Part shown: piece after piece, positions 7,217-34,665 of the stretch
Layout: each line of letters starts with the position of its first letter
Numbering within the stretch: position 1 is the stretch's first letter
Source of the DNA: Wenzhouxiangella sediminis
GTDB taxonomy: Bacteria; Pseudomonadota; Gammaproteobacteria; Xanthomonadales; Wenzhouxiangellaceae
Assembly: GCF_003410055.1 (NCBI RefSeq)
Contig: NZ_QUZK01000042.1
Coordinates: forward strand, 62,001 to 126,000
Direction: 5' to 3'
DNA: 64,000 nucleotides
The notes under the pieces: generated by a model
Seen by the model: only the letters and a program-made list of their open reading frames with translations
Told to the model about the DNA's origin: nothing
Database searches by the model: none
Program-made: the position numbers and the translations under genes

Positions 7217-7262
7217 TGGTCGGGGTGACTGGATTCGAACCAGCGACTCCTGCCTCCCGAAG
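7217..7262 (-). repeat. Left attachment repeat (stranded tRNA-Pro 3' end)
   Basis: These 46 bp are identical to 34620-34665, the 3' part of tRNA-Pro(CGG) including CCA end, T arm, variable loop and the 3' side of the anticodon arm. Identity stops at 7262/34665 and also one base before the CCA end. Since the 5' half of the tRNA is missing here, this is the displaced original 3' end left by site-specific integration, marking the far edge of the island. Confidence 0.93.
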
Positions 7263-7474
7263 CCAAGTGCTATGTAAGTATGTTGAAGTCTACCAGTAGG
7301 CGCTAAGTGCTGTCAAATGGCGTTTTCAGGGGTTCGTCGGCTTGAAACGCGATGTAAATTGAGGCACAGTTGTGCCCAATATGTATAGATTAAAAAGTAT
7401 TTAAATTTTGACTCCTGCCCACGTTTTTTTGCTGATTCCAGGGTATTTCGGGGCAATCAGGTTCCGGAGCCCGC

Positions 7475-9790
7475 GTGTCTGATGCCGTAGCTCGCCTAAT
7501 GGTCCTCATGGGGGCGCCGGACGGCTCTCATCCGGACTGGCCTCAGGTGCGCCGCACCATGTCCCAGATTCTCGGCGATGTCGAGACCATCACGTCCCGG
7601 GTGACGGCCGCCCACTGGGTTGTGGCTCCTCTTAGGCAGATGGAAGCTCCGGCGCCGGCCAGCACCAGCGAGTCCCTTGGCGCCATGCCTAGCCGAGGTT
7701 GCATCACCCACTATCCGGTTTTTGCCGCGTTGGCCACACAGCCGATTGTGCCGCAGGCGGATGCCGCTCGAAAATTGCAGGCGCTGTATCTGGTTTCAAT
7801 TGCGTTGCGTGAGTACCACATCGTCAACGAAGGGTATGGGCCTCCGGTGGGCAGTGCCGAGCTCTCATGCAGGCGAATTGTGCGCGGCCGGTACTCGGAT
7901 GAGCGTATCGGCGCGATCATCCGTCGTTCCTCGAGTCCGATCTCGTTGTGCAATCAACTGGAGAAGCTTCAGCGTTCCAAGCGCCCGCTTTCGGAATTTG
8001 ACTTGAGCTTGGTAAGTGGGCTGTTACCCCTTCTGCGCGACGTTCGGGATGACCGGGACCTCCGCACAAGAAAAGGTGGTGGGCAAAGAAATCGCGAAAT
8101 CGAGACTACTGTCCTGGATGCTGCCGATGATGACCCTACATCCCGAAAGCCAGCGCTGATACTAGAACGTCCGGACGAAGAAACCCGCGCCGAGCTGCAG
8201 GCGGAAGGGCTCCCTACTGAGTACGAAACGACCCGGGAGACCCTCTATGCCGAGATGCCCCCGTCACGCAACGAGAACTTCCCGGCTCGGCAGCTAAGCG
8301 AGCACCAGGCCCAGCAGCGCCTGATTCTGAGGGCTCGCGCGTACAAGACGAACCAGCAGCAAGTTCCCAATCGGCGTGAAATGCTCCACGAGCCGGCGCT
8401 GGCTCCTTTGCTGCACCCTAAGGGCCCTGTGTCGCCACCAAAGGGTTCTGACCTGGACTGGACGCTCGATACACTGCTTGGTTTCATGCTTCTGACGGGG
8501 TGCGAGGAAAAGGATCTGCACCATGTACGGGTCTGGAGCAAGCATTCACAGGTGCCGCGCCAGCCACCGGCGCTGGGGGTGGTACTGGAATATGTGGAGG
8601 AATATGCGGAGTTCATGATGCCTGTTGCACGCTTACCCGACTCCTGGCGACCCAATTCGGAGTATCGACACCATTTCAGACGGCCCGCCAATCGCTTTTA
8701 TCTGAAAATTCCCACCCACCTGCCTATTGGAGAGCGGATTGTGAAGTTGGCCAGTCGGGTTCCCGAAGGCGGCCCGTTATGCGGGGACTCCCTTGGGCCG
8801 GCTGATGAACTGCCCAAGAAGCTGAAGGACCGGGTCTCCAAGCTCAACGATATCCACCACACCCATCTGACGCTCAATCGGATCAGTTTGTTCCTCTGGG
8901 GCGCGATCTACGCGCTCGATGGCGATATGGCCGAAGCGCTGCTGCTCAGCCGCCGTCATCGTCGCTCGAACGATTCGCGGCTCTATTACTACTCGACTCA
9001 GAGCGACCATCTACGAAACCAATATGCGAGAGTTTGGGGCGCCAAATCAAAACGGCCGTCGTCGAACGATAGGCGGCATGCCGTGCTGAAGGTTATAAAT
9101 CCGGACATCGGTTCGGCAGCGGTTCCGTATCGCGACAGCATCAGCGACCTCGTACGGTTAATGAAGGAGCGCATTTCCGTCCTCATGGCGGGGCGCGGGC
9201 GGCGTACAGCCTCTCGCTGGATCGAAATACACAATGCGATGACTGCCTACGTCATACGCCAGATTCAGTGGATGACGGGAATTCGCGCGGTCCGCGACCC
9301 GATCGAGCTGCCGCTGTACGCCGCGCGCTCAGGATTCCTGGGCGTGATCGACAAGGATTCCAACGACGAGTACGGGGCTCGTGTCGTCTGGCTGATTGAG
9401 CCGGTCCAGCAGCAGATTGAAACCTACCTGCAATACGTCGACTCCGCGACGCGCTCTATCTTCGGGGAGGTGAATCGCGAAGCCGCATTCCGCTTCATTG
9501 GAGAGGGGCCGGCGATTCTGCAAGTCAATCAGCGGCGGCTCGAGCAGCACTTGCCCGACTACCCGTTCGCGGCGAACTCCCACCGTCACTATCTGAGAAC
9601 CCGGCTTCGTGAGAAGGAAGTCGATGGCGGGGTTGTCGACGCCTGGATGGGGCATGGGGGCATTGGCGCTGAACCCTACGCCCGGCACAGTGCAATGTCA
9701 CCAATGGTGATGCAGGAGGGGACCGAGGCAGCCCTCAACTCGATTTGGGAAGAACTCGGATGGGAAGTGTTGCCGGGGAGCCAGCATTGA
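7475..9790 (+). CDS. Large divergent tyrosine recombinase (first of coupled pair)
   Basis: Predicted site-specific recombinase, 771 aa, about twice the usual integrase size. The catalytic C-terminal part is recognisable: WMTGIRAVRDP carries the box I arginine, SHRHYLRTRL the box II Arg-His, WMGHGG the conserved Gly-His, and EPYARHS the likely tyrosine nucleophile near residue 730. The first 500 residues match no domain I recognise and are rich in charged residues. The GTG start at 7475 has GGAG seven bases upstream; the next in-frame ATG is 7499. It lies 212 bp from the left attachment repeat and reads into the island. Its stop falls inside the next recombinase gene, so the two are translationally coupled. 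It probably acts with that partner in integration or excision. Confidence 0.72.
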   Translation: MSDAVARLMVLMGAPDGSHPDWPQVRRTMSQILGDVETITSRVTAAHWVVAPLRQMEAPAPASTSESLGAMPSRGCITHYPVFAALATQPIVPQADAARKLQALYLVSIALREYHIVNEGYGPPVGSAELSCRRIVRGRYSDERIGAIIRRSSSPISLCNQLEKLQRSKRPLSEFDLSLVSGLLPLLRDVRDDRDLRTRKGGGQRNREIETTVLDAADDDPTSRKPALILERPDEETRAELQAEGLPTEYETTRETLYAEMPPSRNENFPARQLSEHQAQQRLILRARAYKTNQQQVPNRREMLHEPALAPLLHPKGPVSPPKGSDLDWTLDTLLGFMLLTGCEEKDLHHVRVWSKHSQVPRQPPALGVVLEYVEEYAEFMMPVARLPDSWRPNSEYRHHFRRPANRFYLKIPTHLPIGERIVKLASRVPEGGPLCGDSLGPADELPKKLKDRVSKLNDIHHTHLTLNRISLFLWGAIYALDGDMAEALLLSRRHRRSNDSRLYYYSTQSDHLRNQYARVWGAKSKRPSSNDRRHAVLKVINPDIGSAAVPYRDSISDLVRLMKERISVLMAGRGRRTASRWIEIHNAMTAYVIRQIQWMTGIRAVRDPIELPLYAARSGFLGVIDKDSNDEYGARVVWLIEPVQQQIETYLQYVDSATRSIFGEVNREAAFRFIGEGPAILQVNQRRLEQHLPDYPFAANSHRHYLRTRLREKEVDGGVVDAWMGHGGIGAEPYARHSAMSPMVMQEGTEAALNSIWEELGWEVLPGSQH

Positions 9791-13316: not shown

Positions 13317-13607
13317 TCACGATGAGGCCCGCTCAAAGGCCTCGGGGCTGATCCCGCCGAGATGGCTGTGCCGGCGGGTTCGATTGTAGAACATCTCGAT
13401 GTAATCGAAGATATCGGCGCGGGCCAGATCCCGTGTCTTGTACACGCGCTTTTTGATCCGCTCTTTCTTCAGGCTACTAAAAAACGGCTCGACAACGGCG
13501 TTGTCCCAGCAGTTGCCCCGCCGGCTCATGCTGGGCTCGAGATCATGCTCCCGACAGAACCGCAGCCAGTCGTCGCTGCCGTACTGAGTGCCTTGATCAG
13601 AGTGCAC
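13317..13607 (-). pseudogene. IS3-family transposase OrfB, C-terminal fragment
   Basis: Last 96 residues of an IS3-family DDE transposase. HSDQGTQY contains the second catalytic Asp, and SMSRRGNCWDNAVVEPFF carries the invariant motif with the catalytic Glu. The C-terminal FYNRTRRHSHLGGISPEAFE is typical. The first catalytic Asp and everything before it are missing: similarity ends abruptly at 13607, where unrelated sequence begins. It cannot be active. Strand and position relative to the OrfA stub suggest remnants of two tandem copies or one rearranged copy. Confidence 0.88.
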
Positions 13608-13945: not shown

Positions 13946-14467
13946 TTATTCAGTATCAATTCGTTCCACTGGCTTCGACGCCCCGTGTGTTGTCCCGCGC
14001 AGTAAGCCCAACGAAATGATAGATAGTACACCGCACACGATCGCGACATCGGCAAGATTGAAGGCTGGCCAATGCCAGGATCGCCAAAAGAAATCAAGAT
14101 AATCGATAACATGGCCGCGGAAGATTCGGTCGACTACATTGCTGGCCGCGCCCCCAAGAACAAGACTGTAGGCGATGCTTTCTCCTCTGGATCGGGTGTC
14201 GTAAATCAGTCTGGTCAGGATGATTGAGACAGCAATTGCGACAGCGGACAGGAAGTAGCGCTGCCAGCCTCCAGCGTTCGCGAGAAGGCCGAATGCTGCG
14301 CCAGTGTTCCATGTGTGCAACCAGCCAAAAAACGGGGTCACTAGGATGGATTCGCCATAAGTCATTGACTGTTGCACCATCCATTTAACAGCTTGGTCGA
14401 ATGATGCCACTACGGCTGATATCAAGAAGGCGATAAACGGGGAAAACTTCGTGTCGTGGCTGAACAT
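13946..14467 (-). CDS. lspA: Lipoprotein signal peptidase II, island copy
   Basis: Inner-membrane aspartic protease that cleaves prolipoprotein signal peptides after lipidation; 173 aa, normal length, four hydrophobic helices. Both catalytic aspartates are visible: GGAASNVVDR (usual GGALGNLIDR) and FNLADVAI. WNTGAAFGLL is another family landmark. It sits 3 bp after the cation diffusion facilitator gene, so both belong to the arsR-led operon. Accessory lspA genes often travel with CDF or P-type metal exporters on resistance elements; the chromosome should have its own lspA elsewhere. The reason for the association is not established. The region beyond the stop runs into the ISL3 fragment. Confidence 0.93.
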   Translation of the reverse strand: MFSHDTKFSPFIAFLISAVVASFDQAVKWMVQQSMTYGESILVTPFFGWLHTWNTGAAFGLLANAGGWQRYFLSAVAIAVSIILTRLIYDTRSRGESIAYSLVLGGAASNVVDRIFRGHVIDYLDFFWRSWHWPAFNLADVAIVCGVLSIISLGLLRGTTHGASKPVERIDTE

Positions 14468-14470
14468 GAA

Positions 14471-15364
14471 CTAGCTCCTTATCGCAAGTATGCGCCTAGC
14501 GCCGTTGAGCACAATGACGCCCGCGATGGATCCAATAACAAGGTCTGGATAGTTCGAGCCGGTCCACGCAACGAGGGCGCCGGCTGATATCACGCCCAAA
14601 TTGATCACCACGTCATTGGCCGAAAATATCCAGCTTGCTTTCATATGCGCTGGTCCTTTTCGATGCTTGAATATCATTAGCAGGCAAATTGTATTGGCAA
14701 TCAGCGCGACGAACGCGATTGCCATCATCACCAGTGATTCGGGCTCACTTCCGAATACAAAGCGTCTTGCCACTTCGGCGAGGACGCCCAAAGCCAAGAT
14801 CAGTTGGAGTATGCCGGCCAAACGCGCTGCCCGTAGCTGCATCATCGCGCTGTGCCCAACCGCAAAGAGCGCAAGTCCATACACCGCCGCATCGGCAAAA
14901 TTGTCCAGGGATTCGCCAATGAGGCCAGTGGATTGGGCGATTAGGCCGGCAGTCATTTCCACCACGAATAGAATTGCGTTGATGCCGAGCAACCAACGCA
15001 AGGTGCCGGATTCCTGTTCTGCAGCGCGCGCCGACGACTCGGTGGCCTCGATGGTCTTGGGATCCGCAGCGACGGTATTCTGAAGCGAGGCGCCCAGCCC
15101 CAAGCTGGCCAGCTTGGCAGTGATCGGTTCCACTTCGCCTTCATGGACGACCGCTAAACAGCGTTCCGACAAATCGAAAGACAGCGTCTCGATCTGATTG
15201 AACCCGTCAAGGGCGAGACGGATCATTCGCTCCTCTGAGGGACAATCCATCTTCGGAACGGAATAGGTGCTGACCCGCTTGTTGTTAGCCCCGGTTCGGA
15301 CCTGAACAGTGTCTGCAGCGTCTGCTGAATCAACGCCGTGGGCGTCCTTATGGGATTCGGTCAT
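14471..15364 (-). CDS. Cation diffusion facilitator with N-terminal metal-binding-like domain
   Basis: Inner-membrane heavy-metal exporter of the CDF family, 297 aa, expected to swap divalent metal for protons. Residues 33-100 form an HMA-like fold segment whose motif is VPKMDCPSEE, with one cysteine instead of the usual CxxC. The transporter part starts near residue 125 (LLGINAILFVVEMTAGLIA) and has SLDNFADA in helix 2 and SANDVVINLG in helix 5, which correspond to the CDF metal-site motifs, with Asn replacing a usual His. There is no C-terminal cytoplasmic domain after helix 6. This short, domain-swapped CDF type commonly neighbours lspA and an ArsR/MerR regulator. Metal specificity (Zn, Cd, Co or Pb) cannot be read. 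Confidence 0.88.
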   Translation of the reverse strand: MTESHKDAHGVDSADAADTVQVRTGANNKRVSTYSVPKMDCPSEERMIRLALDGFNQIETLSFDLSERCLAVVHEGEVEPITAKLASLGLGASLQNTVAADPKTIEATESSARAAEQESGTLRWLLGINAILFVVEMTAGLIAQSTGLIGESLDNFADAAVYGLALFAVGHSAMMQLRAARLAGILQLILALGVLAEVARRFVFGSEPESLVMMAIAFVALIANTICLLMIFKHRKGPAHMKASWIFSANDVVINLGVISAGALVAWTGSNYPDLVIGSIAGVIVLNGARRILAIRS

Positions 15365-15394
15365 GATGTTCTTTGGCCAGGTTCAGTGGATTGA

Positions 15395-15598
15395 TTAGGT
15401 TTCGGAATCAAGTGACTTGGTTTCGGACTGCTGCTCGAACCGGGGTGGTGACACGTTCTTGAGCGTGCCAGCGCAAAAGCCGATCGCCCCGGCTATAGCG
15501 GCTGTTGCGCCGAGCTCACGACCTTCGGAGTGGCTCATGCGGGGTAGCAGTGTGGTCCGCTCGATTTCCGATCCGGTGCAACTCGGGCATGTCATCAT
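15395..15598 (-). CDS. Small membrane protein with CPSC motif
   Basis: Unrecognised 67-aa protein starting MMTCPSCTGSEIERTTLLPR. It has one Cys-x2-Cys pair near the N-terminus, then a hydrophobic stretch GATAAIAGAIGFCAGTL that could cross the membrane once, and a polar tail. The ATG at 15598 shares one base with the TGA stop of arsR, so translation is coupled and the protein belongs to the metal operon. A longer frame reaching 15643 would only overlap arsR. A role in metal sensing or delivery is plausible from position, but nothing more is shown. Confidence 0.6.
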   Translation of the reverse strand: MMTCPSCTGSEIERTTLLPRMSHSEGRELGATAAIAGAIGFCAGTLKNVSPPRFEQQSETKSLDSET

Positions 15599-15996
15599 CA
15601 AGCTTCCGTTTCCAGGCCTTCGGGTTGGGTGCCAACGCGGCAACGCCCGTCTTTACGCAGACGCATGCGTTGCACGAAGCGCATTAGGTCTCTTCTGAAC
15701 TGCTCATCGGGATCTGGCAACGCATTCACCGAAGCCGTTAGCTTGTCCAGATGGGCAGGCTCTTTAACTAGGCGGTGATAGACCCAGCGCCCGTCCTTGT
15801 GCGCGGACAACAGGCCTGCTAGGCGCAAGATTTTCAGATGGCGTGAGAGCTTGTAGGCCGGTTCCTGGAGGCTGTCGACCAGTTCACACAAACAGGCTTC
15901 TTCGTCCGCTGTCGCCAGCAGACGGATAACGCGCAGCCGGGTGTCGTCGGCCAGGGCCTGGAAGAGGGTGGAAGGTTCAATTTGCACCACTTGCAT
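15598..15996 (-). CDS. ArsR/SmtB-family metal- or sulfur-responsive repressor
   Basis: Winged-helix repressor of 132 aa. ALADDTRLRVIRLLA is the family start; EACLCELVDSL holds the CxC pair (ELCVCDL type) that binds As(III)/Sb(III) in ArsR; LSRHLKILRLAGLL is the recognition helix and RWVYHRL the wing. The upstream frame is open to 16956 only because it is antisense to the dioxygenase gene. The ATG at 15996 begins where the predicted transcript starts, so the mRNA may be leaderless. It leads the operon arsR-small protein-CDF-lspA and probably represses both itself and the divergent dioxygenase gene. The inducer could be a metal(loid) or a reactive sulfur species, as in BigR-type regulators beside similar enzymes. 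Confidence 0.85.
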   Translation of the reverse strand: MQVVQIEPSTLFQALADDTRLRVIRLLATADEEACLCELVDSLQEPAYKLSRHLKILRLAGLLSAHKDGRWVYHRLVKEPAHLDKLTASVNALPDPDEQFRRDLMRFVQRMRLRKDGRCRVGTQPEGLETEA

Positions 15997-16031
15997 AGTT
16001 GCACTATAATACAAATAAAGGCCGTCCTCAA
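15982..16031. promoter_or_regulatory. Overlapping face-to-face promoters with shared ArsR operator
   Basis: Rightward promoter: TTGCAC at 15982-15987, 17-bp spacer, perfect TATAAT at 16005-16010, reading toward the dioxygenase gene. Leftward promoter: TTGAGG at 16026-16031 (minus strand), 17-bp spacer, TATAGT at 16003-16008, with the predicted start at about 15996, the A of the arsR ATG. The -10 boxes overlap. Inside them is a perfect inverted repeat ATAGT-TGC-ACTAT at 15995-16007, placed to let one bound dimer block both directions. Confidence 0.68.
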
Positions 16032-16152
16032 CATAAAGGACTGGATGCTGCGATCCTCGAAATAGCCGGGAAAAGGGAGGCAGTTCTTGGCCTGAATCGA
16101 GTGCGGCGCCGTCATTTATGGGTGTTGATGCAATGAGCTGTCGGAGATTTAC

Positions 16153-17016
16153 ATGCTGAAACCAGAAGTCGAGGTATTCCACCACGCCGACACCGGTACG
16201 TTCAGCTACGTTGTCCACGAGCCTGACGGGCGTGCTGCTGCGATCATCGACCCGGTCTTGGACTACGACCCTGCGGCAGCAAGCACCAACACTGAATCGG
16301 CCGACCAAATCGCTGCCTTCGTGAGCGCACGGAAGCTCGACGTGCTTTGGATCCTCGAAACACACGCCCATGCGGACCACGTCACCGCGGCTCCCTATCT
16401 CCAAAAGCGCCTGGGCGGATTGATCGGAATCAGTTCTGGCATCGCCAAGGTACAAGCCAAGTTCCGAGACGAACTGAACCTTGGCGCCGCATTGCCCACC
16501 GACGGCTCGCAATTTGACCGGCTGTTTGACGCCGGCGAGACATTCGACATCGGCACTATGAAGACTCGCGTTATCCCCACGCCCGGACACACCCCTGATA
16601 GCGTGAGCTACCTTGTCGGCGACGCAGTTTTTGTCGGTGATTCGCTGTTCATGCCTGATGCCGGCACCGCCCGCTGTGACTTTCCCGGCGGCGATGCCCG
16701 CCTGCTGTGGCAATCCACGCGCCGGCTGTTCGAGCTGCCCGACGTAACGCGGATGTTTGTATGTCATGACTATGGGCCGGGCGGCCGCGAGGTGCGCTTT
16801 GAAACCACGGTAGGCGAGCAGAAGAATTTCAATATCCATGTCGGCGGTGGCCGTAGCGAGGACGAATTCGTGGCGATGCGTACCAAACGAGATGCGGGGC
16901 TCGGCATGCCAAGGCTGATCCTGCCGGCGATCCAGATCAATATCCGTGCAGGCCATCCACCTGATCCGGAAGACAACGGGGTGTCGTACCTGAAAATTCC
17001 ACTGAACCGGTTATGA
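16153..17016 (+). CDS. Metallo-beta-lactamase-fold persulfide dioxygenase-like enzyme
   Basis: Predicted 287-aa ETHE1/Blh-type enzyme that oxidises glutathione persulfide to sulfite and glutathione in the cytoplasm. The metal-binding motif THAHADH is clear, followed by PTPGHTPDSVSYLVGD, FVGDSLF and VCHDYGPGG, which supply the remaining His and Asp ligands. No rhodanese domain is fused. The ATG at 16153 has GGAG six bases upstream. The gene diverges from arsR and shares its operator; in other bacteria BigR, an ArsR-family repressor, controls the homologous blh gene. This pairing suggests induction by sulfide or persulfide stress, or by metals that generate sulfur species. The MBL family is broad, so a different hydrolase activity is possible but less likely. 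Confidence 0.87.
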   Translation: MLKPEVEVFHHADTGTFSYVVHEPDGRAAAIIDPVLDYDPAAASTNTESADQIAAFVSARKLDVLWILETHAHADHVTAAPYLQKRLGGLIGISSGIAKVQAKFRDELNLGAALPTDGSQFDRLFDAGETFDIGTMKTRVIPTPGHTPDSVSYLVGDAVFVGDSLFMPDAGTARCDFPGGDARLLWQSTRRLFELPDVTRMFVCHDYGPGGREVRFETTVGEQKNFNIHVGGGRSEDEFVAMRTKRDAGLGMPRLILPAIQINIRAGHPPDPEDNGVSYLKIPLNRL

Positions 17017-17310
17017 CCAGCTCTAGAATTGACGTACATTCTTTGCCAGCCTCGGAGTAGGCTAGAAGGATCGATGGCTCTTACTCCTTTAGAGTGGTTG
17101 CATAAGGAAACCGGGGATCCACGGCGCACTTGCAACGACTGTTGAAGCAGAAATCGCGATTCGACTGACTATCAACTCCGCCAGGGCGTACTGGATCGAC
17201 CCCAAGCCGGTTCAGGTGTCGCAAAACTCAGAAGATCTGTCCGCACGGCTGATTGTGCCGGCCACGGGCAGTCGGGAAAAATACACTCGAAGGCTTCGGG
17301 GCCGAATTCA
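17017..17310. other. Gap before dsbD: no confident gene
   Basis: There is no ORF with family features. A 23-codon frame starts at 17073 (MALTPLEWLHKETG, then a stop) and could be a gene remnant. Upstream of it is an inverted repeat AGCCT-N6-AGGCT at 17048-17063 after a TTGACG at 17029-17034; the spacing does not make a normal promoter. The rest appears non-coding. Confidence 0.4.
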
Positions 17311-23752: not shown

Positions 23753-23768
23753 GTTTCATTTTTGAAAC
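23753..23768. promoter_or_regulatory. Palindromic operator between excisionase and HTH regulator
   Basis: Perfect inverted repeat GTTTCA-TTTT-TGAAAC in the 127-bp AT-rich spacer between the divergent excisionase and HTH genes. Its position 30 bp upstream of the excisionase ATG fits a repressor site controlling the excisionase-integrase operon, probably bound by the divergent HTH protein. Confidence 0.5.
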
Positions 23769-23850
23769 GTTCGGGTCAAAATATAACCGATGTTTGCAGG
23801 GTGTCAAGTATTGGTGCAAAATTTTCTTTTTGTGGACGGATGGCCCAAAA

Positions 23851-24148: not shown

Positions 24149-25087
24149 ATGAACTCGACCCACCAGAATTGTGCTGAGGCTTCGTGGGATTTTGGCTTCC
24201 TTAGGTATCCCCACTCCATTCAATTCGAAGGCGGTAGCGTCGAGGTCGGGGAGCAGTACGCTGCGGCATGCGAAGAAATAGATAAGTATCGTCATCGCGA
24301 CGGGAATCTATATCCTCCAATTCAGCGAACCGTTCCGATCGACTGGCAGACCGGAGAGCATGGAGATCCGCTGGAAAACACGGAACGCCCCGCTCGTGTC
24401 TTTCCGCCACCTTTGTCACATGAAATTTTTATTTCGAGTCGAATTGACGACGGCGATATCAGGCGCGGCGATGCCGCTCTCATCGTTCACCTGCTAGCGC
24501 TCCTATTCGATACACGGCTGCAGTTTGATGGCTGGAGGTTTGACGGCAAGGTGCCGATTCCTGATAAAAGCTCAATCCTCTTGCTTCGCGGAGCGCTTGA
24601 AGACTCCCTCAGCGCCATATATCAAAATTGGCGCCTCTGGTCAGAGTCGCACCGAAACTTCTTTGTAAAGATTCTATACATGCACGCGCGTGCCAAAAGC
24701 TGCGAATGGTCATGGTATCGGTTTCTAACGGAATACATGGTTCTGGACGCCATCCATAGATTTTCGGTGCAACGCGGGATACTGAAGAATGAGGTTAAAC
24801 ACAGGGACCGCATAATTCAGATGTGTGAGCAGTTTGAGGTTCCTCAGGATGCCCGCACGATCGAAAGCATCGTTAGTGTAAGAAATGAACTTATTCATGA
24901 GGCAAGCATTGAAGGTGCTCTTCCTGGCACCCGAACTGACGATACGTTTCATTTGAGCAAGTGGCTCGGCCGGCTCAATTCAAGGCTTATTTTCGCTGTC
25001 TCAGGCTACCCGAATGAGTTCGTGCGCTCGGGTTGGTGGTTTTTCGGCTGGCAGCGATTTAATAAAGCCGATCGAAATTGTCGCTGA
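24149..25087 (+). CDS. HEPN-like protein of unknown target
   Basis: 312-aa cytoplasmic protein, not assignable to a named family. Its C-terminal half is helical and contains SIVSVRNELIHEA (Arg245 to His250), a match to the Rx4-6H catalytic motif of HEPN ribonucleases, positioned after a long helix as in Apea/RiboL-PSP-associated HEPN proteins. The N-terminal half (FGFLRYPHSIQFEGG, PPPLSHEIFISSRI) is unfamiliar. The region is visibly richer in A+T than the chromosome, indicating recent acquisition. There is no nucleotidyltransferase-type antitoxin next to it. Its position between an integrase module and a restriction-modification scar fits an anti-phage or stress RNase, but many RNxxxH proteins are not nucleases. 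Confidence 0.5.
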   Translation: MNSTHQNCAEASWDFGFLRYPHSIQFEGGSVEVGEQYAAACEEIDKYRHRDGNLYPPIQRTVPIDWQTGEHGDPLENTERPARVFPPPLSHEIFISSRIDDGDIRRGDAALIVHLLALLFDTRLQFDGWRFDGKVPIPDKSSILLLRGALEDSLSAIYQNWRLWSESHRNFFVKILYMHARAKSCEWSWYRFLTEYMVLDAIHRFSVQRGILKNEVKHRDRIIQMCEQFEVPQDARTIESIVSVRNELIHEASIEGALPGTRTDDTFHLSKWLGRLNSRLIFAVSGYPNEFVRSGWWFFGWQRFNKADRNCR

Positions 25088-25175: not shown

Positions 25176-26105
25176 TCAACCCGCTCGAGTCTGAATGCCT
25201 TCGTGGATGGTTTCGATCTGCTGGAAAACAGCTTCTACGACATCTTCCTTGCCAGTGAATAGCTCATCTGGGCCGGCGTGGTGAAGACGGGTAAAAGGAG
25301 GTTCGTAGAGCGCCTCCGGAGGCATTACACCGCGGGCGGTGAGTTGGTCGACGATCATCTCAACGAAGCGGATCTGGTCTGGGCTGAGGCTGCGGTCGTT
25401 CAGGAACTCGGCGAATGCTTCCTGGGCTGCAGATCGGTCCATACCGACCAGGCTTCTGACGAACCAAGCCAGTGAAGGGGCGCCGTTTCGTTCGAGCAGG
25501 TCGTTGAGCAAGCGGGGCCCGTCTTCGTCTCCGATCTCGCTCAACGTCTGTTCCAGTCCCTCTAAGTCTGTTTCGGTAAGCGGCTGGTTGGTGCGCAGGC
25601 GGTGGATGACCAGGTGGTCCTGGTGATTTTTTAGGTATTCGCGCACTTTCTTCTCGTACTGCGCCCCGGTCATCTTGGGCATGGGGACAACATCCTCGTC
25701 CCGGATGTCGCGGACCTCGTCCTGGAAGTTGGTGTAGATGACGGTGCGTTCCTTGCGCTCGAGTAGCCGCACCAGGCCGCGCAGACGCAAGCGTAGGTCT
25801 TCGAGCAGCTCCAGGTTCGTGCCTTCCCACCACTGGGCTTCCTGAACGGCCGCGCGCAGCCCGAGCTGCTCCTTGACGGCAGGCACGTTGGACTTCTCTT
25901 CCAGCAGGCCGGCCAGCTCGACGACGCGCTTTCTGTGACGCTCGAAGTCGCCGGTGTCAGCTTCGATCAGCGCCAATTGCAGGCGTAGGGCTGTCAGGTC
26001 GAACAGGCGCGATTCGATATCGTCGTTGGGTTGCTCGCTGGGCAGTCCGGCCACCTCGTCGTGCAGTACTTGCCGGTCGGTGTCGCTGATCCGCTGCCAG
26101 GCGAT
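25176..26105 (-). pseudogene. hsdR: Type I restriction enzyme HsdR, C-terminal remnant
   Basis: About 310 codons matching the C-terminal helical region of EcoEI-type HsdR: LRLQLALIEADTGDFERHRK, RTVIYTNFQDEVRDI, and the terminal PPEALYEPPFTRLHHAGPDE. The DEAD-box motor and the nuclease domain are absent. The fragment is joined near 26105 to the 5' end of hsdM in another frame, so the 3' part of hsdM, all of hsdS and the 5' part of hsdR have been deleted in one event. It has no start of its own and cannot restrict DNA. Confidence 0.82.
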
Positions 26106-26395
26106 TTCATGAACGGAAAGACCTCGTCGCGCACGACTTCGAACAGCCGCTCCGGCGCCATTTCGCGGAAATGCGACCAGCGCAGAAGCTGCTGGTCCTC
26201 CCCGAAAAGGCGCTCCCGGGAGTATTTTCCAGTGCGGCGGGCCTTGTTTTCCTCGCGCTTCTCGATCTCGTCCAGGCGCTTGATGAACAGCAGATAGGTG
26301 AGCTGCTCGACCACCGACAGGGGGTTGGAAATCCCCCCGGCCCACATCGTGTCCCAGATCTTGTCGACCTTCGATTTGATTTCGCCGGTAATCAT
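26106..26395 (-). pseudogene. hsdM: Type I modification enzyme HsdM, N-terminal remnant
   Basis: The first 97 codons of HsdM: MITGEIKSKVDKIWDTMWAG, then QLTYLLFIKRLDE, the classic N-terminal helical domain, ending at EVFPFMK. The methyltransferase domain (NPPF, SAM motif) is missing. The ATG at 26395 keeps its AGGAG ribosome site. Beyond the junction the hsdM frame stops at 25994 after a short nonsense tail. If expressed, it would be a 133-aa truncated protein without catalytic ability. Confidence 0.85.
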
Positions 26396-26599
26396 TTCTG
26401 CTCCTGGCCTTGTTCCCCCGAGGTTGGGACATGATTCTAGCGGCTATGCCCGGACAGGAAACAGGGGATCGGGGAGAGGAGGGTGCCGGGCACAGTTGGG
26501 CAGGAGTCGAATCCCGCCCGTGGCCTTACCTCGCTGGGGTTCTCGGTGGACGGCGGGGCGCGTCCTACAAATCGCCGTGCGCCGCCCAAAGGTGGTCAG

Positions 26600-27630
26600 C
26601 TAGGGGGGAGAGGGCCCTGGAATCAACTTGCCCGGCACCCACTTCAGATAAGCCACCGTGCCGAACAGCTCGACGAGCGACTGGAAGACGACGACCACCA
26701 CCGCGGCCTGCCAAGGCTCGGGCAGCGCCAGGGCGATGGGCAGCACCACAAAGGAATTGCGGGTACCGAAGCTGAAGGCCAGGGTTCTGGCCGAACGCGC
26801 TGGGAGCTGGAACGCGCCGCCGAGGGCCTTGCCCAGGAACGCGGCGAAGACCAGGTAGGCGATGAAGATCAAAAGCACCTGCAGCATGACCGCGGAAAGC
26901 CCGGCCACCGTGTTCACCTGCGAAACGGCGACAACGAAGACAACCAGTGCCAGCAGCGGCGTGGGCAGCACGCCCAGGCCCTGAATCCACCGCCTGGCCT
27001 TCGGGCTGCGCTCGGCCAGGCGCTCGGTCACCCACGCCAGGGCCAGAGGCGCGAGAATCAGCCCTGCAAAGGCGCCGAGCAGGTCGGTGCTGATGGCGGC
27101 CTGAAGCCACTCCGCGCCCAGGAAGAGCCCGAGATAGACGGGCAGGACCAGCAATTGCGTGAGCAAAAGCAGGGGTGCCGCGGCAACGGCCCTTCCGGCA
27201 TCGCCCTTGCCCAGCTGGGTGAAGCTGATGAACCAGTCGGTGCAGGGGGCGAGCAGCACCAGCAGCACACCGGCCTGCACGACTGGCGAGACGGGCAGCA
27301 GCGCCATCATCCCGCCCAGGACCAGGGGAATGACCAGGAAATTGAGAGCAGCAGGGCCGCCAGGAAACGCCAGTCCTTGAAGCCCTGACCGATACGCGTC
27401 AGGGGAACCTGGGTAAAGGTGGCGTAGAGTAGCCCCCCAAGCAGCGGCCATAGGGCGACTTCGAGTCGTGACGTGACGTTCGGCAGGCCCAGCCCGATGG
27501 CCAGGCCCGCCAGGATCGCAATCAGCAAGATCCAGCATTGTTGGCGTTCCATCCAGTCGCGCAAGGGCAAGGATCCTTCCCGGGTTTCCAGTGACAAGCG
27601 TCTGGCATCGTAAGCCTTTTGGGTACCCAC
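26600..27630 (-). pseudogene. Arsenite permease, ACR3/bile-acid-symporter superfamily, frameshifted
   Basis: Inner-membrane transporter of the arsenite efflux type split into two frames. The first part (GTG 27630, or ATG 27552 giving MERQQCWILLIAILAGLAIG) runs to FLAALLL; the second resumes as LNFLVIPLVLGGMMALLP and continues through APCTDWFISFTQLGKGD and AFSFGTRNSFVVLPIALALP, both ACR3-like signatures. The break is at the GAGAG run 27344-27348, where two extra bases (a duplicated dinucleotide) would explain the shift. Joined, it would be about 340 aa with ten helices, a full-length protein. It may be a real recent mutation or a sequencing error. It diverges from the metal efflux operon and has no ArsR gene directly attached. 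Confidence 0.8.
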
Positions 27631-27732
27631 ATACTGCTAGCGTGCAGAGTTGTTCAGAGGTTCCTTAAGCAGTGCGGCTGCAGGGCCGGGCTGTTTTTAA
27701 TCCGCCGATTCTTTCATGTTAACCTCAGTGCC

Positions 27733-28133: not shown

Positions 28134-29486
28134 ATGCAATCTGCGAATCGTGCCCGCATGAGCGGGCGTGCGGCAGTGGCTGCAATGACTGTAGCCATTG
28201 CCCTGATGGTGCCGCTGTGGGTGGCGGCCCAATCCGGGCAATCTTCTCCGGAAGGCACACTGACCCTCGACGAGGCCGTTGCCACGGCCATGCAGAACAA
28301 TCTCGAGCTGCACGCCGCCCGGCAGGAAATCCTGACCGCGCGCGCCCGGCTCGAACACGCCAGTCGCTGGGCGCCCTCTAATCCCCAGATCTCGGTTAGG
28401 CAGCGCCGGCGCGACCCGCCCGGACCGGGCGGGACCAGCACCGACTTCGGCGTCGAGCTCTCCCAGGAACTGTGGATCGGCGGCCAGCGTGGCCTCAATC
28501 GAAGCGGCCGCCAGTCGGAGGTCGAGAGCGCTCGGGCGATGATCCAGTTCCTCGAGCTGACGGTCGCGGCGCGAACCCGCCGGGCCTTTCTCGACCTGAT
28601 CGTGGCGCGTGAGTCGGTTGAAACGGCGCAACGCGCCGTGGCCGTCACCGAAGAGATCCAGCAGTCAACGCGGTCACGCAAGGAGGCGGGCGAGGCCACG
28701 CGTATCGAGGTCAACTCCGCCGCCATCGGCGTCGGCCGCGCAAGATCGGCCCTGGCCGAGGCGCAGGCCAACGCGAACGAGGCGCGGGCGCGCCTGCGCG
28801 AGCTGATGGCCGACCAGGTGCCGGAATACATCGAGCTCTCGGGCGACTTCAATCTGCGGGCACTGGACCTGCCACCTCGGAGTGAGCTGCTCAATCGGGT
28901 CGTGGGCCATCGTGGCGACCTGGCCGCGGCAGCCGCCGATATCGCGGCGGCGGAAAGCGATCTCGCACTGTCGAAGCGCCAGTTGATCCCGAACCTGACG
29001 GTTTTCGGGTTCTACGAACAGGAGGAAGAAGAGGACATCACGGGCGTGGGCGTGTCCATGCCGCTGCCGGTGCTGCATCGCTACGGCGGTGAGCGCAAGG
29101 AGGCGCAAGCGGATCTGAGAAAGGCCCAGATCGAGCGTGACACCCTGCTGCTGGAAGTCCGTATCGGTCTCGACCGGGCCATCGAGGACTACCGGGTTGC
29201 CAAATCGAGAATCGAAGCCGTCTCCGAACAGGTGCTGGCGTCGGCCGAAGACAACGTGCGGCTGACCTACGAGGCCTTCCGCGCGGGTGAAGTCGGCATT
29301 ACGGCCGTCTCCTCGGCGCAGGAAGCCCTGCTGCAGGCGCGCCGTGCCTATCTGGAGGCCCGCCGCGCCTTCATTCGGGCGGCCACCGATCTCGAGCGCA
29401 CCAGCGGCGGCCTGCTCGTCGTCCACGGCCGCCCGGCCGAAGCGGAAACGAGCCGGGAAGACGAAATCAACGAGAAGGAATCCTGA
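28134..29486 (+). CDS. czcC: Outer-membrane efflux protein, TolC/CzcC family
   Basis: 450-aa outer-membrane channel of a three-part heavy-metal RND exporter. It has a signal peptide (AAVAAMTVAIALMVPLWVAA), followed by LTLDEAVATAMQNNLELHAA, the standard start of a TolC repeat, and a second repeat beginning near RGDLAAAAADIAAAESDLAL. Long coiled-coil helices and short barrel strands are expected. The stop is 2 bp before the membrane-fusion gene, so the operon is tight. Confidence 0.92.
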   Translation: MQSANRARMSGRAAVAAMTVAIALMVPLWVAAQSGQSSPEGTLTLDEAVATAMQNNLELHAARQEILTARARLEHASRWAPSNPQISVRQRRRDPPGPGGTSTDFGVELSQELWIGGQRGLNRSGRQSEVESARAMIQFLELTVAARTRRAFLDLIVARESVETAQRAVAVTEEIQQSTRSRKEAGEATRIEVNSAAIGVGRARSALAEAQANANEARARLRELMADQVPEYIELSGDFNLRALDLPPRSELLNRVVGHRGDLAAAAADIAAAESDLALSKRQLIPNLTVFGFYEQEEEEDITGVGVSMPLPVLHRYGGERKEAQADLRKAQIERDTLLLEVRIGLDRAIEDYRVAKSRIEAVSEQVLASAEDNVRLTYEAFRAGEVGITAVSSAQEALLQARRAYLEARRAFIRAATDLERTSGGLLVVHGRPAEAETSREDEINEKES

Positions 29487-29488
29487 TC

Positions 29489-30766
29489 ATGCGACCACTG
29501 AAGATGCTTTTGGGCCTGTTGCTCGTCGCCGCGTTGAGCGGTTGCGGCGACAGCGAAACGGGCCGGGAAGACGAACACCAGTCCCACGATGCGCCGGCTG
29601 CCGAAAGCCACGAGGGGCACGGTGATGAGACCGAAGCCCATGAAGACGAAGAATCGGGGCACGAAGACGAAGCGGCACACGGCGAGGACGAACGGTCCCG
29701 CAATCTCGAACTCACCGCTGCCCAGCAGCGTCGACTGTCGATCCAGGTTGAGGAAGCGACATCGGGATCCGCGAGCGACGCGGTTTCTGCGCCCGCCACC
29801 CTGACCTATGACAAGGATCGAATTGCGCGGGTCGGGCCGCGCCTGGACGCCAAAGTCGTGCGTGTCATTGCCGATCTCGGCGATCGTGTCGAAGCCGGCG
29901 ACCCGCTGGTCGAACTCGACAGCGTGGCGCTGGGCAAGGCCAAGGCGCGGCACCTGACCACGCTCGCGCGTCTCGAGACAGTTCGTGCCCAGTACGAGCG
30001 CGAGCGCGAACTCAATGAGAAGGACATCACCAGCGACGCCGAGCTTCAGGAGGCGCGCGCGCTCCTCGCCGAGGCCCGGGCCGAGCACGATGCGGCCGAC
30101 GAGGAGCTCAGGCTCTACGGCCTGTCGCCGGAGGAAATCGACTCGGTCCAGCCCGATGCCGACGTGCCGCTGTCTCGCTATGTCCTGACCAGCCCCATCG
30201 ACGGAGCCGTTCAGCACCGTGACGTCGTGCCCGGTCAGACCGTCGGCGCCAATGAAACGCCGGTGACGATCGTGGACACCTCGACCATGTGGCTGATGAT
30301 CGAAGCCAGCGAATCCGATGCCGGGGCGCTCCGCCCGGGTCAGCCTGTGGATCTGACGGTACGCAGCCTGCCCGCAACACGCTTCGAAGGCGAGCTGGAC
30401 TGGGTTTCCAGCAGCCTGGATCGAGCATCCCGCACGCTCACCGCACGCGCCGCAATCGCCAACCCGGATGGCTTGCTGCGCGACGGCATGTTCGGCACCG
30501 CCCGCATCGAGGTCGGCGAAGCCGCCAACCGCACGCTGGTGCCGCTCGATGCGGTGCAGGAGCTCGAAGGCGAAGACATCGTTTTCGTGCCCGGCGACAA
30601 GTCCGGCCACTTTCGAGCCGTTTCCGTCTCCGTCGGTGCCGAGAACGACCGTGTCGTCGAGATCCTCGAAGGCCTTGCACCCGGTGACCCGGTCGTGGTT
30701 TCCGGCGCCTTCGATCTGAAGTCCGCGCTGACCGCTGCCACCCGCAGCGCCGCCCACTCGCACTAG
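29489..30766 (+). CDS. czcB: Membrane-fusion (adaptor) lipoprotein, CzcB family, His/Glu-rich N-terminus
   Basis: 425-aa periplasmic adaptor linking the inner-membrane pump to the outer channel. LLLVAALSGCG is a lipobox with Cys at about residue 18. Residues 28-70 are extremely rich in His, Glu and Asp (HEGHGDETEAHEDEESGHED), a likely metal-binding segment that may pass ions to the pump. The rest is standard: barrel-sandwich part (RVGPRLDAKVVRVIADLGD), an alpha hairpin near residues 150-200, and a beta-barrel/membrane-proximal part ending at VVSGAFDLKSALT. It lies between the channel and pump genes with 2- and 9-bp gaps. Confidence 0.93.
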   Translation: MRPLKMLLGLLLVAALSGCGDSETGREDEHQSHDAPAAESHEGHGDETEAHEDEESGHEDEAAHGEDERSRNLELTAAQQRRLSIQVEEATSGSASDAVSAPATLTYDKDRIARVGPRLDAKVVRVIADLGDRVEAGDPLVELDSVALGKAKARHLTTLARLETVRAQYERERELNEKDITSDAELQEARALLAEARAEHDAADEELRLYGLSPEEIDSVQPDADVPLSRYVLTSPIDGAVQHRDVVPGQTVGANETPVTIVDTSTMWLMIEASESDAGALRPGQPVDLTVRSLPATRFEGELDWVSSSLDRASRTLTARAAIANPDGLLRDGMFGTARIEVGEAANRTLVPLDAVQELEGEDIVFVPGDKSGHFRAVSVSVGAENDRVVEILEGLAPGDPVVVSGAFDLKSALTAATRSAAHSH

Positions 30767-30775
30767 GAGCGTTTC

Positions 30776-33700
30776 ATGATCGATGCAATGACTCGAACGG
30801 CGCTGTCCAACCGCCTGCTGGTGCTGGTGTTCGCCGCGGCGGTGCTGATCGCCGGGATCTTCGCCTTTCGCAGTGTCCCGATCGATTCCTTTCCGGACGT
30901 CACGCCCACGATGGTGCAGGTCTTTACCGCCAGCCCCGGCTTGTCGCCGGAGGACGTCGAAACCCAGATCAGCTATCCGGTGTCGATTGCGATGTACGGC
31001 CTGCCTGGCCTCGAGCGCGTCCAGAGCACGTCCATCTTTGGCCTGTCGCGCGTCAATATCTACTTCGAGGACGGCACGGATATCTACTTCGCCCGCCGGC
31101 TGGTCAACGAGCGGCTGGCCCAGGCGCGCCAGGAGATTCCCGAAGGCATGGGCAATCCGCAGCTCGGGCCGCTGACCACCGGCCTGGGGCGCGTATTCAT
31201 GTACACCGTCGAGAACGTCGACGGGGCCGACTACACCCCCACCGAACTGCGCGAGGCGCAGGACTGGATCGTCAAGCCCCAGCTCCGCACGGTTCCGGGC
31301 GTGACGGGTGTTCTCTCGATCGGCGGTTTCGAAAAGCAGTACCAGGTCAATCTTGACCCCAAGGCACTGGCGGCGCGCAACCTGACCGTGGGCGACATTC
31401 GCGCCGCGTTGGCCGCCAACAATCGAAACGTCGGTGCCTCCTTCATCCAGCGCAGCGGCGAGGAGTACATCGTGCGCGGCTATGGCTGGATCGATTCCGG
31501 CGAGAAGGGACTCGACGATCTGCGCAACATCATGGTCAGCGAAGCGCAGGGCACGCCCGTTTATCTCGGCGACATCGCCGAGATCGAATTCGGGCCGGCC
31601 ATTCGTCGCGGCACCCTGATGAAAAACGGCGAAGAGGGCGTGGGCGGCTTTGTCCTCAAGCTGATCGGAACCAACACCCAGGATCTGTTGACGGCCATCG
31701 AGGCCAAGGTTGCGACCATCAACGACGCCTTGCCGGAGGGTATGCGGCTGGAACCCTACTACTCGCAGGCCGACCTGGTCGGCAAGGCCGTCGGCACGGT
31801 CGAGAAGGCCTTGCTGGAAGCGGCCGTGCTGGTCCTCGCCCTGCTATGGCTGTTCCTGGGCAATGTGCGATCGACCCTGATCGTGATCATCAGCCTGCCC
31901 TTGTCGGCGCTGGTGGCCTTCATCGCCATGCGATACGTCGGCATGTCGGCCAACCTGATGAGCCTGGGCGGACTGGCCATCGGGATCGGCATGATGGTGG
32001 ATGGCTCCGTGGTGATGATCGAAAACATCTTCCGACACATGGAGGAGCGGCAAGACGAAGATGTGACGCTACAAAGGCTTGTGGGCGAGGCCGCCCGCGA
32101 AGTCGCCAAGCCGATCGCCTTCGCCATTGCCATCATCATCATCGTCTTTCTGCCGCTGTTCACGCTCGAGGGCGTGGAAGGCAAGATGTTCTCGCCGATG
32201 GCCTACACCATCAGCTTTGCGCTGGCCGGGTCATTGATCGTCGCGCTGGTCCTGGTTCCGGTGCTGACCACGCTGTTGTTCAAGAAGGACAGCGTGCACG
32301 GCGAGCCTCGCCTGGTCGGCTGGCTGAGAAAGGGCTATCGACCGCTCCTCGATGCGGTGGTGGCGTATCCAAAGCGCACCGTGGCCGCCGCCCTGGTGCT
32401 GTTCGCCGGCGGACTGGCCCTGTTCCCCATGCTGGGCACGGAGTTCGTCCCCACCCTGCGGGAAGGTACGTTCCTGGTGCGATCGACCCTGCCGCCCGGC
32501 GCCAATCTGGATACCGCCAACGAGTATGCCGGGCGGGTCGCCGACGTGATGCGCGAGTACCCGGAAGTCACCGGCGTCTATGCCCGCGTCGGCCGGGCCG
32601 AAGTCGGCGGCGATCCGGAGCCGGTCAACGTCGTCGCCTCACTTGTTGCACTCAAGCCGCTCGATGAGTGGAAGAGCGGCCGCGACTACGAGGAGCTGCA
32701 GACCGCCATGGCCGAGCGCCTGTCCGATGAGGTGCCGGGCCTGGCCAACAATTTCTCGCAGCCGATCCAGCTTCGTACCGACGAGCTGCTGTCGGGGATC
32801 ATGGCTGAGGTCGTCATCAGCATCTATGGCGAGGACCTCGACGAACTGGCGCGCATCGGCGAGGAAGTAACCGCCATCGCCCGCGAGGTGCCTGGTTCGG
32901 CCGACGTGCGCATGCAGCAACAGGGCGGCAAGCCCCAGATCGTTGTCCGGCCCGACCGTCAGGCGCTGGCGCGCCACGGTATCTCCCTCGACGAGGTCCT
33001 GGGCGTGGTCGAGACCGGCATCGGCGGGGCAAAGGCCGGGCAGGTCTTCGAAGGCATCCGCCGCTTCGACATCTTCGTGCGCATGGAAGAGCCGGCGCGG
33101 ACCAGCGTCGACGATATTCGCAGCCTCAACTTCCGCACTTCCGCCGGGGCGCTCATCCCGCTGTCGCAGATCGCCGATATCGAGGTCTACCGCGGGCCGA
33201 AGAAGATCTCGCGCTCCAAGGCGAGTCGCCGACTGTTCGTGCAGCTCAACGTGCGCGGCCGCGACATGGGCAGCGTGGTCAGCGATATCCGGCAGCGCAT
33301 CGCCGAGGAGGTGGAAATGCCGGCCGGATACTTCGTCGAGTACGGCGGCCAGTTCGAGAATCAGGAGCGTGCCATGGCCCGGCTCTACGTGGTCGTGCCC
33401 ATTACGCTCGGCCTGATCTTCCTGCTGCTGTTCATGGCCTTTTCCAGCGTGCGCTACGCGGCGTTGATCTTTCTCAACGTACCTTTCGCGGTTACCGGCG
33501 GCCTGTTTTCGCTGTGGATTTCCGGGCAATACCTGTCGGTTCCCGGCGCGGTCGGGTTCATCGCCGTATTCGGCGTGGCCGTGCTCAACGGCGTGGTCAT
33601 GGTGTCCTACATCAATGAACTGCGCGAGCGTGGTCGCTCGCTGGAAGAAGCCGTGCGCCTGGGTGCCGAGCGGCGCCTTAGGCCCGTGCTCATGACCGCC

Positions 33701-33883
33701 TCTGTCGCCATTCTGGGCCTCATCCCGCTGCTACTGGCCAACGGCATCGGCGCCAATGTGCAACGCCCGCTGGCCACGGTGGTCGTCGGCGGCCTGGTCA
33801 CCTCCACGGCGCTGACGCTACTGGTGCTGCCCGCGGTCTATCGCTGGTTCGCCGAACCGCGCAGCGAAGTCGACTTCAGCTGA
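30776..33883 (+). CDS. czcA: Heavy-metal efflux RND pump, CzcA/CusA family
   Basis: 1035-aa inner-membrane proton/metal antiporter. FRSVPIDSFPDVTPTMVQVF is the HME-family start; twelve helices and two large periplasmic loops are expected. The helix-4 proton relay reads AIGIGMMVDGSVVMIEN, with Asp409 and Glu416 present, but the first Asp of the CzcA motif DFGxxxDGAVxxxEN is Gly403. The Met triad of copper/silver pumps (CusA) is not evident (FVPTLREGTFLV). This suggests divalent-ion export (Zn, Cd, Co, Ni or similar) but not a firm substrate. The gene is followed 15 bp later by the PII-like gene. Confidence 0.94.
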   Translation: MIDAMTRTALSNRLLVLVFAAAVLIAGIFAFRSVPIDSFPDVTPTMVQVFTASPGLSPEDVETQISYPVSIAMYGLPGLERVQSTSIFGLSRVNIYFEDGTDIYFARRLVNERLAQARQEIPEGMGNPQLGPLTTGLGRVFMYTVENVDGADYTPTELREAQDWIVKPQLRTVPGVTGVLSIGGFEKQYQVNLDPKALAARNLTVGDIRAALAANNRNVGASFIQRSGEEYIVRGYGWIDSGEKGLDDLRNIMVSEAQGTPVYLGDIAEIEFGPAIRRGTLMKNGEEGVGGFVLKLIGTNTQDLLTAIEAKVATINDALPEGMRLEPYYSQADLVGKAVGTVEKALLEAAVLVLALLWLFLGNVRSTLIVIISLPLSALVAFIAMRYVGMSANLMSLGGLAIGIGMMVDGSVVMIENIFRHMEERQDEDVTLQRLVGEAAREVAKPIAFAIAIIIIVFLPLFTLEGVEGKMFSPMAYTISFALAGSLIVALVLVPVLTTLLFKKDSVHGEPRLVGWLRKGYRPLLDAVVAYPKRTVAAALVLFAGGLALFPMLGTEFVPTLREGTFLVRSTLPPGANLDTANEYAGRVADVMREYPEVTGVYARVGRAEVGGDPEPVNVVASLVALKPLDEWKSGRDYEELQTAMAERLSDEVPGLANNFSQPIQLRTDELLSGIMAEVVISIYGEDLDELARIGEEVTAIAREVPGSADVRMQQQGGKPQIVVRPDRQALARHGISLDEVLGVVETGIGGAKAGQVFEGIRRFDIFVRMEEPARTSVDDIRSLNFRTSAGALIPLSQIADIEVYRGPKKISRSKASRRLFVQLNVRGRDMGSVVSDIRQRIAEEVEMPAGYFVEYGGQFENQERAMARLYVVVPITLGLIFLLLFMAFSSVRYAALIFLNVPFAVTGGLFSLWISGQYLSVPGAVGFIAVFGVAVLNGVVMVSYINELRERGRSLEEAVRLGAERRLRPVLMTASVAILGLIPLLLANGIGANVQRPLATVVVGGLVTSTALTLLVLPAVYRWFAEPRSEVDFS

Positions 33884-34216: not shown

Positions 34217-34575
34217 CCATTCGCCGAGACAATCATCGGCTGCTTCACAGGTCTCGATTCCCTCACTGCCGGAAAAAGTGCTGCGCTTCAGCAGTGCGAG
34301 TTGGCGCAGGAAGATTGCCGAGATGAGGGGTAAAACGAGTGGTTTGTCCCATCCGCCTGTTCGTTCCGGACAGACCAGCCAATATTTCATGGGCGGCCCG
34401 ACTCCGGGCACGGCCGGGCAGGTGTCGAATTCGCCCCGTTGCTGTCACGAGCCGGGCACGATTTGGGCACAGAATGGGCACAAGATCGATCCGGCGCTGC
34501 AGGAAGAGGGATCCCGGTCGGCCGGGGAGGGCGCCAGGAGTTCAGGGGCTTAGGCTGTATCTTTATGATCCGGAA
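34217..34575. other. Right-end spacer of the island
   Basis: There is no confident gene. Frames over this stretch look random. One rightward frame ends with HEPGTIWAQNGHKIDPALQE and a stop at 34553, which resembles the non-conserved tail of some phage-type integrases next to a tRNA target, so a truncated integrase end may lie here; this is weak. The segment runs from the PII-like stop to the tRNA terminator. Confidence 0.35.
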
Positions 34576-34604
34576 CGAAAAACGCCGGCTCGAGGGCCGG
34601 CGTT
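34576..34604 (-). terminator. Terminator of tRNA-Pro
   Basis: Leftward transcript forms a 9-bp stem AACGCCGGC with GCCGGCGTT and a six-base loop, then a run of five T (A-run 34578-34582 on the plus strand partly in the stem). It lies 16 bp beyond the CCA end of the tRNA. Confidence 0.8.
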
Positions 34605-34619
34605 CTTGCGGGATTCGGC

Positions 34620-34665
34620 TGGTCGGGGTGACTGGATTCGAACCAGCGACTCCTGCCTCCCGAAG
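34620..34665 (-). repeat. Right attachment repeat inside tRNA-Pro
   Basis: Identical over 46 bp to 7217-7262, same orientation. It covers the CCA end through the 3' part of the anticodon loop (plus-strand end CCGAAG). Crossing over between the two copies would excise a circle of 27,403 bp and leave one intact tRNA gene. Confidence 0.93.

Follow-up and report, generated by a model that had tools for sequence, protein, structure and literature searches.

What do two exact fragments of a tRNA gene, standing far apart in a bacterial chromosome, tell us about the DNA between them: is it a single mobile element, and which of the recombinases that it encodes put it there? The question is raised by a 27.4-kb block in Wenzhouxiangella sediminis, whose features are listed in Table 1 by their coordinates in the window, i.e. 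the whole 64-kb stretch of DNA that was analysed. The block is a tRNA-integrated genomic island of composite structure, and in what we regard as the probable reading it arose from site-specific integrations, one after another, into a single tRNA-Pro(CGG), with the tyrosine recombinase INT as integrase and a pair of large recombinase-like proteins, P1 and P2, as its partner.

Ends, target and contents of the island

The perfect 46-bp direct repeat reported in the preliminary description, with copies 27,403 bp apart, was exact on recheck, and a chance origin of such a match within 64 kb is ruled out. Its right copy makes up the tRNA-Pro(CGG) from the anticodon loop to the 3' end; the right end of the island thus completes the intact tRNA, just as had been proposed. 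The repeat has many further matches, in the same genome and in relatives (80-100% identity), and since many of these align over the full length of a tRNA they look like tRNA genes (partly checked). Relatives with an island-free site, which had been predicted, do exist. In one of them (G010, contig C14) an intact tRNA-Pro(CGG) leads into sequence homologous to the left flank of the window (as far as position 6911, 82% identity), the other flank extending only about 90 bp before the contig ends; in another (G024, contig C20) the tRNA and both flanks lie on one 494-kb contig, in which window positions 4949-7216 have no match.

The GC content is 51-61% in most 1-kb intervals between 7 and 26 kb, the exceptions being those at 21-23 kb (64-66%), and 65-71% in the left flank (1-7 kb), while that of the right part of the island (26-34 kb, 63-67%) is not distinct from the right flank (61-65%). 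The classification as a tRNA-integrated island follows from the repeats that complete the tRNA 3' end, the island-free relatives and an open tyrosine integrase gene (INT, 416 aa); no relaxase or conjugation family of Pfam was found in the 20 island ORFs scanned, so that the island is not classed as an ICE or IME. The cargo agrees with the metal export, persulfide oxidation and thiol reduction described earlier (CzcCBA, CDF, ZIP, a Blh-like dioxygenase and DsbD). Within the ORF that contains an ArsR/SmtB-type regulator, the real gene is probably only the lower part. Absent from the preliminary description were the two large recombinase-like genes, P1 and P2, that fill the left 6 kb of the island.

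Table 1. Features of the island and its target, in window coordinates
Feature	Position	Strand	Remarks
Left attachment core, stranded 46-bp copy of the tRNA-Pro(CGG) 3' part	7217-7262		exact repeat
Left arm-like pair, GGCACA and inverted TTGTGCCC, between core and P1	7363-7379		putative function
P1, 771 aa, tyrosine-recombinase-like	7475-9790	+	R604, K627, R704, H727 kept
P2, 1149 aa, overlaps P1	9745-13194	+	R610, K650, R732-H733, H774, Y784
C-terminal remnant of IS3-family transposase	13317-13607	-	
lspA-like signal peptidase II, cargo	13946-14467	-	
Cation diffusion facilitator (CDF), cargo	14471-15364	-	
ORF with ArsR/SmtB-type regulator in residues 325-400	15598-16956	-	
MBL-fold protein, matches dioxygenase half of Blh	16153-17016	+	NF040641, below cut-off
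DsbD thiol:disulfide interchange protein	17311-19608	+	
ZIP-family metal transporter	19764-20618	+	ZupT model, below cut-off
Z462, no assigned function, after INT	20543-21931	-	
Z137, no assigned function, overlaps INT end	21831-22244	-	
INT, 416-aa tyrosine integrase with PF12167 (DUF3596) arm-binding domain	22244-23494	-	PF12167 E 8.7e-25
o110, small gene upstream of INT	23487-23819	-	weak excisionase/regulator match
o312, no assigned function, present in G027 too	24149-25087	+	
C-terminal remnant of type I restriction HsdR	25176-26432	-	EcoEI_R_C
Stretch replacing the internal att core of G027 (A/B junction)	26521-27711		holds SBF-family ORF 26600-27538
czcCBA-type heavy-metal RND efflux genes, three ORFs, cargo of element B	28134-33883	+	
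Conserved right end of elements, terminator-like hairpin adjoining tRNA	34297-34619		
Arm array, three direct GGGCAC[A/G]-type sites, 11-bp spacing	34454-34483	+	
Right attachment core, within tRNA gene	34620-34665		exact repeat
Intact tRNA-Pro(CGG)	34620-34696	-	sole tRNA gene found in the 64-kb window

Two elements in tandem

The same island occupies the same tRNA in a congener whose genome is in one contig (G027). Its island blocks are 93.6-97.9% identical to those of the window, far above the 72-80% of the aligned flank blocks, which points to a recent transfer between the species. Such a block might also have been moved by homologous recombination across the tRNA locus, without the recombinases, given that the locus is identical in both species and that the genes from lspA to zip (window 13946-20618) are 99.5-100% identical. 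However, beyond the cores no high-identity tract was found (those needed could be further out, or short): on the right the next aligned block starts 0.8 kb past the tRNA, at 72%, whereas on the left nothing aligns for 2.2 kb in the window or 4.3 kb in G027, and the left cores differ. We therefore consider this route improbable. Identity to G027 also varies from gene to gene (INT 89%, with 929 of 1251 nt compared; P1 94.7%; P2 98.0%; czc 95.8-98.7%), which makes the island a mosaic, and the near-identical cargo beside an INT of 89% points to recent exchange inside it.

The outer ends, described before as precise, are indeed clear, but the idea of one element between them finds no support, since G027 has a third, internal att core (56055-56100 of the joined stretch) besides the left and the tRNA-side ones. 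This core splits the island into two elements in tandem, namely element A (51 kb), which contains the recombinases and cargo, and element B (7.1 kb, 56055-63171 of the joined stretch), which carries czcCBA and has no integrase; no matches to P1, P2 or INT were found in the latter. Both elements have similar right ends (88% identity over 263 bp, ahead of the internal core and beside the tRNA, respectively). In G009, a draft genome (75% complete) to whose junctions mixed populations may contribute, the chromosomal left flank, 99% identical to that of the window, is followed by a core and directly by the left end of B, and the right end of another element is also followed by a core and the same left end of about 100 bp (that of B in G027). 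Being joined to two contexts, the left end of B is independent. If the island were instead a single element integrated once, in line with the mere two cores of the window, the extra core of G027 would have to be a later duplication of a tRNA fragment; yet ahead of it stands a complete element right end, arms and terminator included, and behind it the very left end that in G009 is also found joined to the chromosomal flank, and so this is very improbable indeed.

According to the composite reading, element A (in the window from 7217 to about 26.5 kb) would have brought the recombination module together with the metal and sulfur cargo, and B would be a non-autonomous element having its core and right end in common with A. 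It is only in G027 that B can be called a CIME, with both att sites kept and neither integrase nor transfer gene. In the window its left att is lost: positions 26521-27711, which match nothing in G027, stand where the internal core would be. This loss would have fused A and B, so that by these cores they could leave only as a whole. A single excision product stated to the base, as given previously, has to be abandoned, both because any position within the identical 46 bp may be the crossover point and because tandem elements can give more than one product.

Several other observations concern these two genomes. The left core of G027 (C1, at about 1070752) resembles the 3' end of another tRNA-Pro, including a terminator of its own, as though the tRNA-Pro had once been completed by an element with the core of another isoacceptor. 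The G027 island also contains three copies (>99.9% identity) of a 2.3-kb element, one of which splits INT. Elsewhere in that genome (C1:732266 and 733660) an 83-bp exact direct repeat, with copies 1.4 kb apart, includes the 3' part of a tRNA-Val(CAC), possibly marking a mini-element in another tRNA. Contig C122 of G009 ends in the same kind of right end and carries LpxR, a thioesterase, an HlyD/ABC exporter and an EamA transporter.

INT, its putative arm sites and the P1-P2 pair

INT has a complete set of catalytic residues. The DUF3596 arm-binding domain is, in the available portion of PMC8138268, that of the IntBPP-1 subgroup of tyrosine recombinases, and by domain and catalytic residues INT is, as far as its sequence tells, of the IntBPP-1 type. 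It is the likeliest integrase of the island, although it lies 11 kb from the right core instead of adjoining it, which counts against it. The small gene o110 accompanies INT in 11 of 14 stretches that hold INT and may encode its directionality factor; Z462 occurs with INT in G009, in G022 and at a second locus of G027, with a weaker match in G017.

With up to three mismatches allowed, seven of 43 family genomes contain the arm array, at 11 sites in total, of which two, in G022, overlap; a control with the pattern reversed matched in none of the 43. All 11 arrays lie 70-171 bp from a gene or fragment of tRNA-Pro, -Val, -Met or -Arg. In G028 a tRNA-Arg is followed by a stranded tRNA half, the arm array, and pieces of o110 and INT that are 66-86% identical to INT (one 59-aa piece, 37%); the tRNA half and array are repeated 3.2 kb on, again with an INT piece after them. 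This one decayed locus links the INT family to the arms. A triple array at 10-12 bp spacing was absent within up to 3 kb upstream of o110 at the 11 other INT loci, those of the window and of G027 included, G028 being the sole positive of the 12 scanned. The same G028 region (C257, 98-3650; L156) shows two stranded tRNA-Arg 5' halves with the same element end after each, i.e. the duplicated side of the tRNA is there the 5' and not the 3' one.

The large pair is of a different kind. P2 has a complete tyrosine recombinase core, whose R, K, R, H, H and Y are conserved in 17-18 of the 17-18 sequences with a residue at the position (one Arg in 17 of 18), and it matches integrases weakly in Pfam (E 2.1e-4, below cut-off) and PHROGs (E 1.4e-11). 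P1 has no family in four libraries, and neither protein has one in NCBIfam or PADLOC or above the Pfam cut-off; P1 resembles tyrosine recombinases weakly (hhalign E 9e-4, probability 23%), and its fold model, from two sequences, has a mean pLDDT of 31.9, too low to be of use. Relatives of P1 nevertheless keep the R (20/20), K (19/20), second R (20/20) and G-H (20/20). A Tyr at H+10 is present in 17/17 P2 and 20/20 INT sequences and in 0/20 of P1. Judging from this alignment P1 has probably lost its nucleophile, a loss that falls short of proof because seven of the 20 relatives, the window's P1 included (nearest Tyr at H+8), have a Tyr at H+8 to H+12. Both ORFs are open in the window and in G027, and dN/dS against G027 is 0.06-0.31 for P1, P2, INT and o110.

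Could P1-P2 be the island's own integrase, and INT a nested passenger? P1 begins about 210 bp inside the left core, which is the usual position of an integrase gene, the pair adjoins the core with both frames open in the two species, and P1 lies near a tRNA elsewhere too, 414 bp from a tRNA-Met in G348 and about 630 bp from a tRNA-Val in G406. Against this, in most other P1-P2 stretches that were read, no tRNA and no long repeat lies near P1 (direct repeats within 1.5 kb of P1 at six other loci are 17 bp in G352 and 14-15 bp or none in the rest), and no known arm-binding domain was found in P1 or P2, though the ends carry arm-type repeats. On balance this arrangement seems rather unlikely to us. 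With INT as integrase, INT and its putative directionality factor o110 would cut in the anticodon-loop core, using the GGGCAC arms near 34454-34483 and 7363-7379, would insert A and could act on B in trans; as every insertion replaces the tRNA 3' part, the tRNA would stay intact. P1-P2 would be INT's partner in recombination, P2 being catalytic and P1 a structural or DNA-binding subunit.

Partnership can be examined through the company that these genes keep. P1 and/or P2 were found at 21 loci (E < 1e-20), or 20 distinct ones, since window and G027 hold the same element, and when five whose contigs end within about 1.5 kb downstream of the genes were set aside (G406, G472, G485, G645 and G678), 15 were informative. 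A strong INT (E 1.6e-77 or better) was present within the stretch read at 11 of these 15 (window/G027, Aeromonas, G186, G270, G298, G348, G352, G421, G451, G508 and G640), weak matches at two (A. johnsonii, E 6.5e-9, and a UViG, E 4.8e-7), and none at the remaining two (Vibrio, about 30 kb downstream read, and G068, about 7 kb). Since the INT profile was made from five sequences that include those of the window, G270 and Aeromonas, these three match by construction; they had been found earlier by tblastn, at 48-49% identity. INT is convergent with P1-P2 in nine of the 11 loci, up to 36 kb away (G298), and codirectional, with a shorter N-terminus, in two (G348 and G352).

Across 368 other genomes of the class, P1 was detected in 10 (E 1e-10), INT in 16 (E 1e-60) and both in six (Fisher p = 4.6e-7, a value that is only indicative because the genomes are related, and in which the weak P1 match of G539 was kept). 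The two occur together in the stretch read in four of the six, and on different contigs in G485 and G539. INT was without P1 in 10 of its 16 genomes, and P1-P2 was absent from the stretch read at seven INT loci (G009, the second G027 locus, G083, G017, G022, G049 and pALWED3.4). Other searches for the pair yielded little: peptide patterns for P2 had no hits in genome contigs, a P2 alignment recovered one relative from viral contigs, where P1 is also present, a P1 alignment recovered none from them, and 50,697 phage records contained no match to P2. Two matches were dropped, that of G080 to P2 being a TamB protein and that of G017:C36 a different protein of 1795 aa. An ORF of 1795 aa (L099, 337-5724) has a trace of similarity to P2 and no Pfam family; at similar matches in six other genomes the frames, from stop to stop, span 1809-1921 aa.

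In the open literature, none of the matches listed was a description of P1-P2 together with INT. We tentatively raise the possibility, without as yet preferring it, that the three form an undescribed mobility system, class-wide and present also in Vibrio, Aeromonas and Acinetobacter, in which a P1 that is probably nucleophile-less, a giant active P2 and the phage-type arm-binding INT would act together, usually as two convergent units. The island itself is ordinary; it is this association of three recombinases that is worth following up. The recombinase pair P1-P2 is as yet unnamed and recurs in the company of one kind of arm-binding integrase, and P1, which keeps most of an active site without the expected nucleophile, is well suited to studying the role of such partners. 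More generally, an island with perfect outer repeats can be two fused elements, and outer repeats alone can misstate the mobile unit.

Comparison with known systems

Like P1-P2, the Gamma-Mobile-Trio has a pair of overlapping genes of recombinase type and, again as in the trio, P1 has a gene of about 200 aa beside it in Vibrio, Aeromonas and Acinetobacter. No NCBIfam model, the GmtY one included (NF040693, recomb_GmtY), matched P1 or P2 up to E 0.1. When profiles of P1, P2 and INT were compared with the Gmt trio of G508, in which GmtZ and GmtX were taken by position as neighbours of GmtY, the best result was a trace between P2 and GmtY (E 8.8e-4, about 35 residues). The profile of NF040692 (recomb_assoc), a family that we take to be GmtX, had no matches in the genomes and none in the controls, and so has no bearing on the question. 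On the profile comparison the trio was rejected as a home for P1-P2.

Strand-biased circularizing elements have, in the accessible part of their description, the gene order intA-tfp-intB-srap, Tfp having a recombinase fold without the catalytic motif (PMC10214605). They thus share with P1-P2 a non-catalytic recombinase-fold protein beside active ones, while the gene order differs. Profiles of P1, P2 and INT gave no credible match to the pAQU1 proteins that we equated with IntA, Tfp and IntB (genes chosen by order, size and the neighbouring blaGMA-1, following the same part of PMC10214605), and these elements were rejected too.

GInts carry ginABCD, i.e. three tyrosine-recombinase-like proteins at one end, of which GinC is without catalytic residues; as far as the consulted sections of PMC5385486 go, these genes are organized as a single operon, and the repeats of the islands, located in protein genes, are imperfect and 10-17 nt long. 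In our island, by contrast, the three genes do not form one operon at one end: INT lies separately, 9 kb away from P2 and convergent with it, and the target gene encodes a tRNA, which sets the island apart by description. Groups of several tyrosine recombinases in one module, one of them defective, are thus already known, from GInts (PMC5385486) and strand-biased elements (PMC10214605), going by the same portions of these papers.

INT resembles the IntBPP-1 subgroup, as far as PMC8138268 was available, in its DUF3596/PF12167 domain and complete catalytic set, and differs in residing in a metal-resistance island, being kept with o110 and occurring in several loci with P1-P2. Finally, tandem integrative elements with CIMEs form by accretion, according to the part of PMC5704250 available to us. 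From the tandems described there the island differs in having no relaxase or conjugation family (20 ORFs scanned) and, in the window, in having lost the internal att, while it is like them in that several elements sit in one tRNA 3' end, with an internal att and with one partner that has no integrase.
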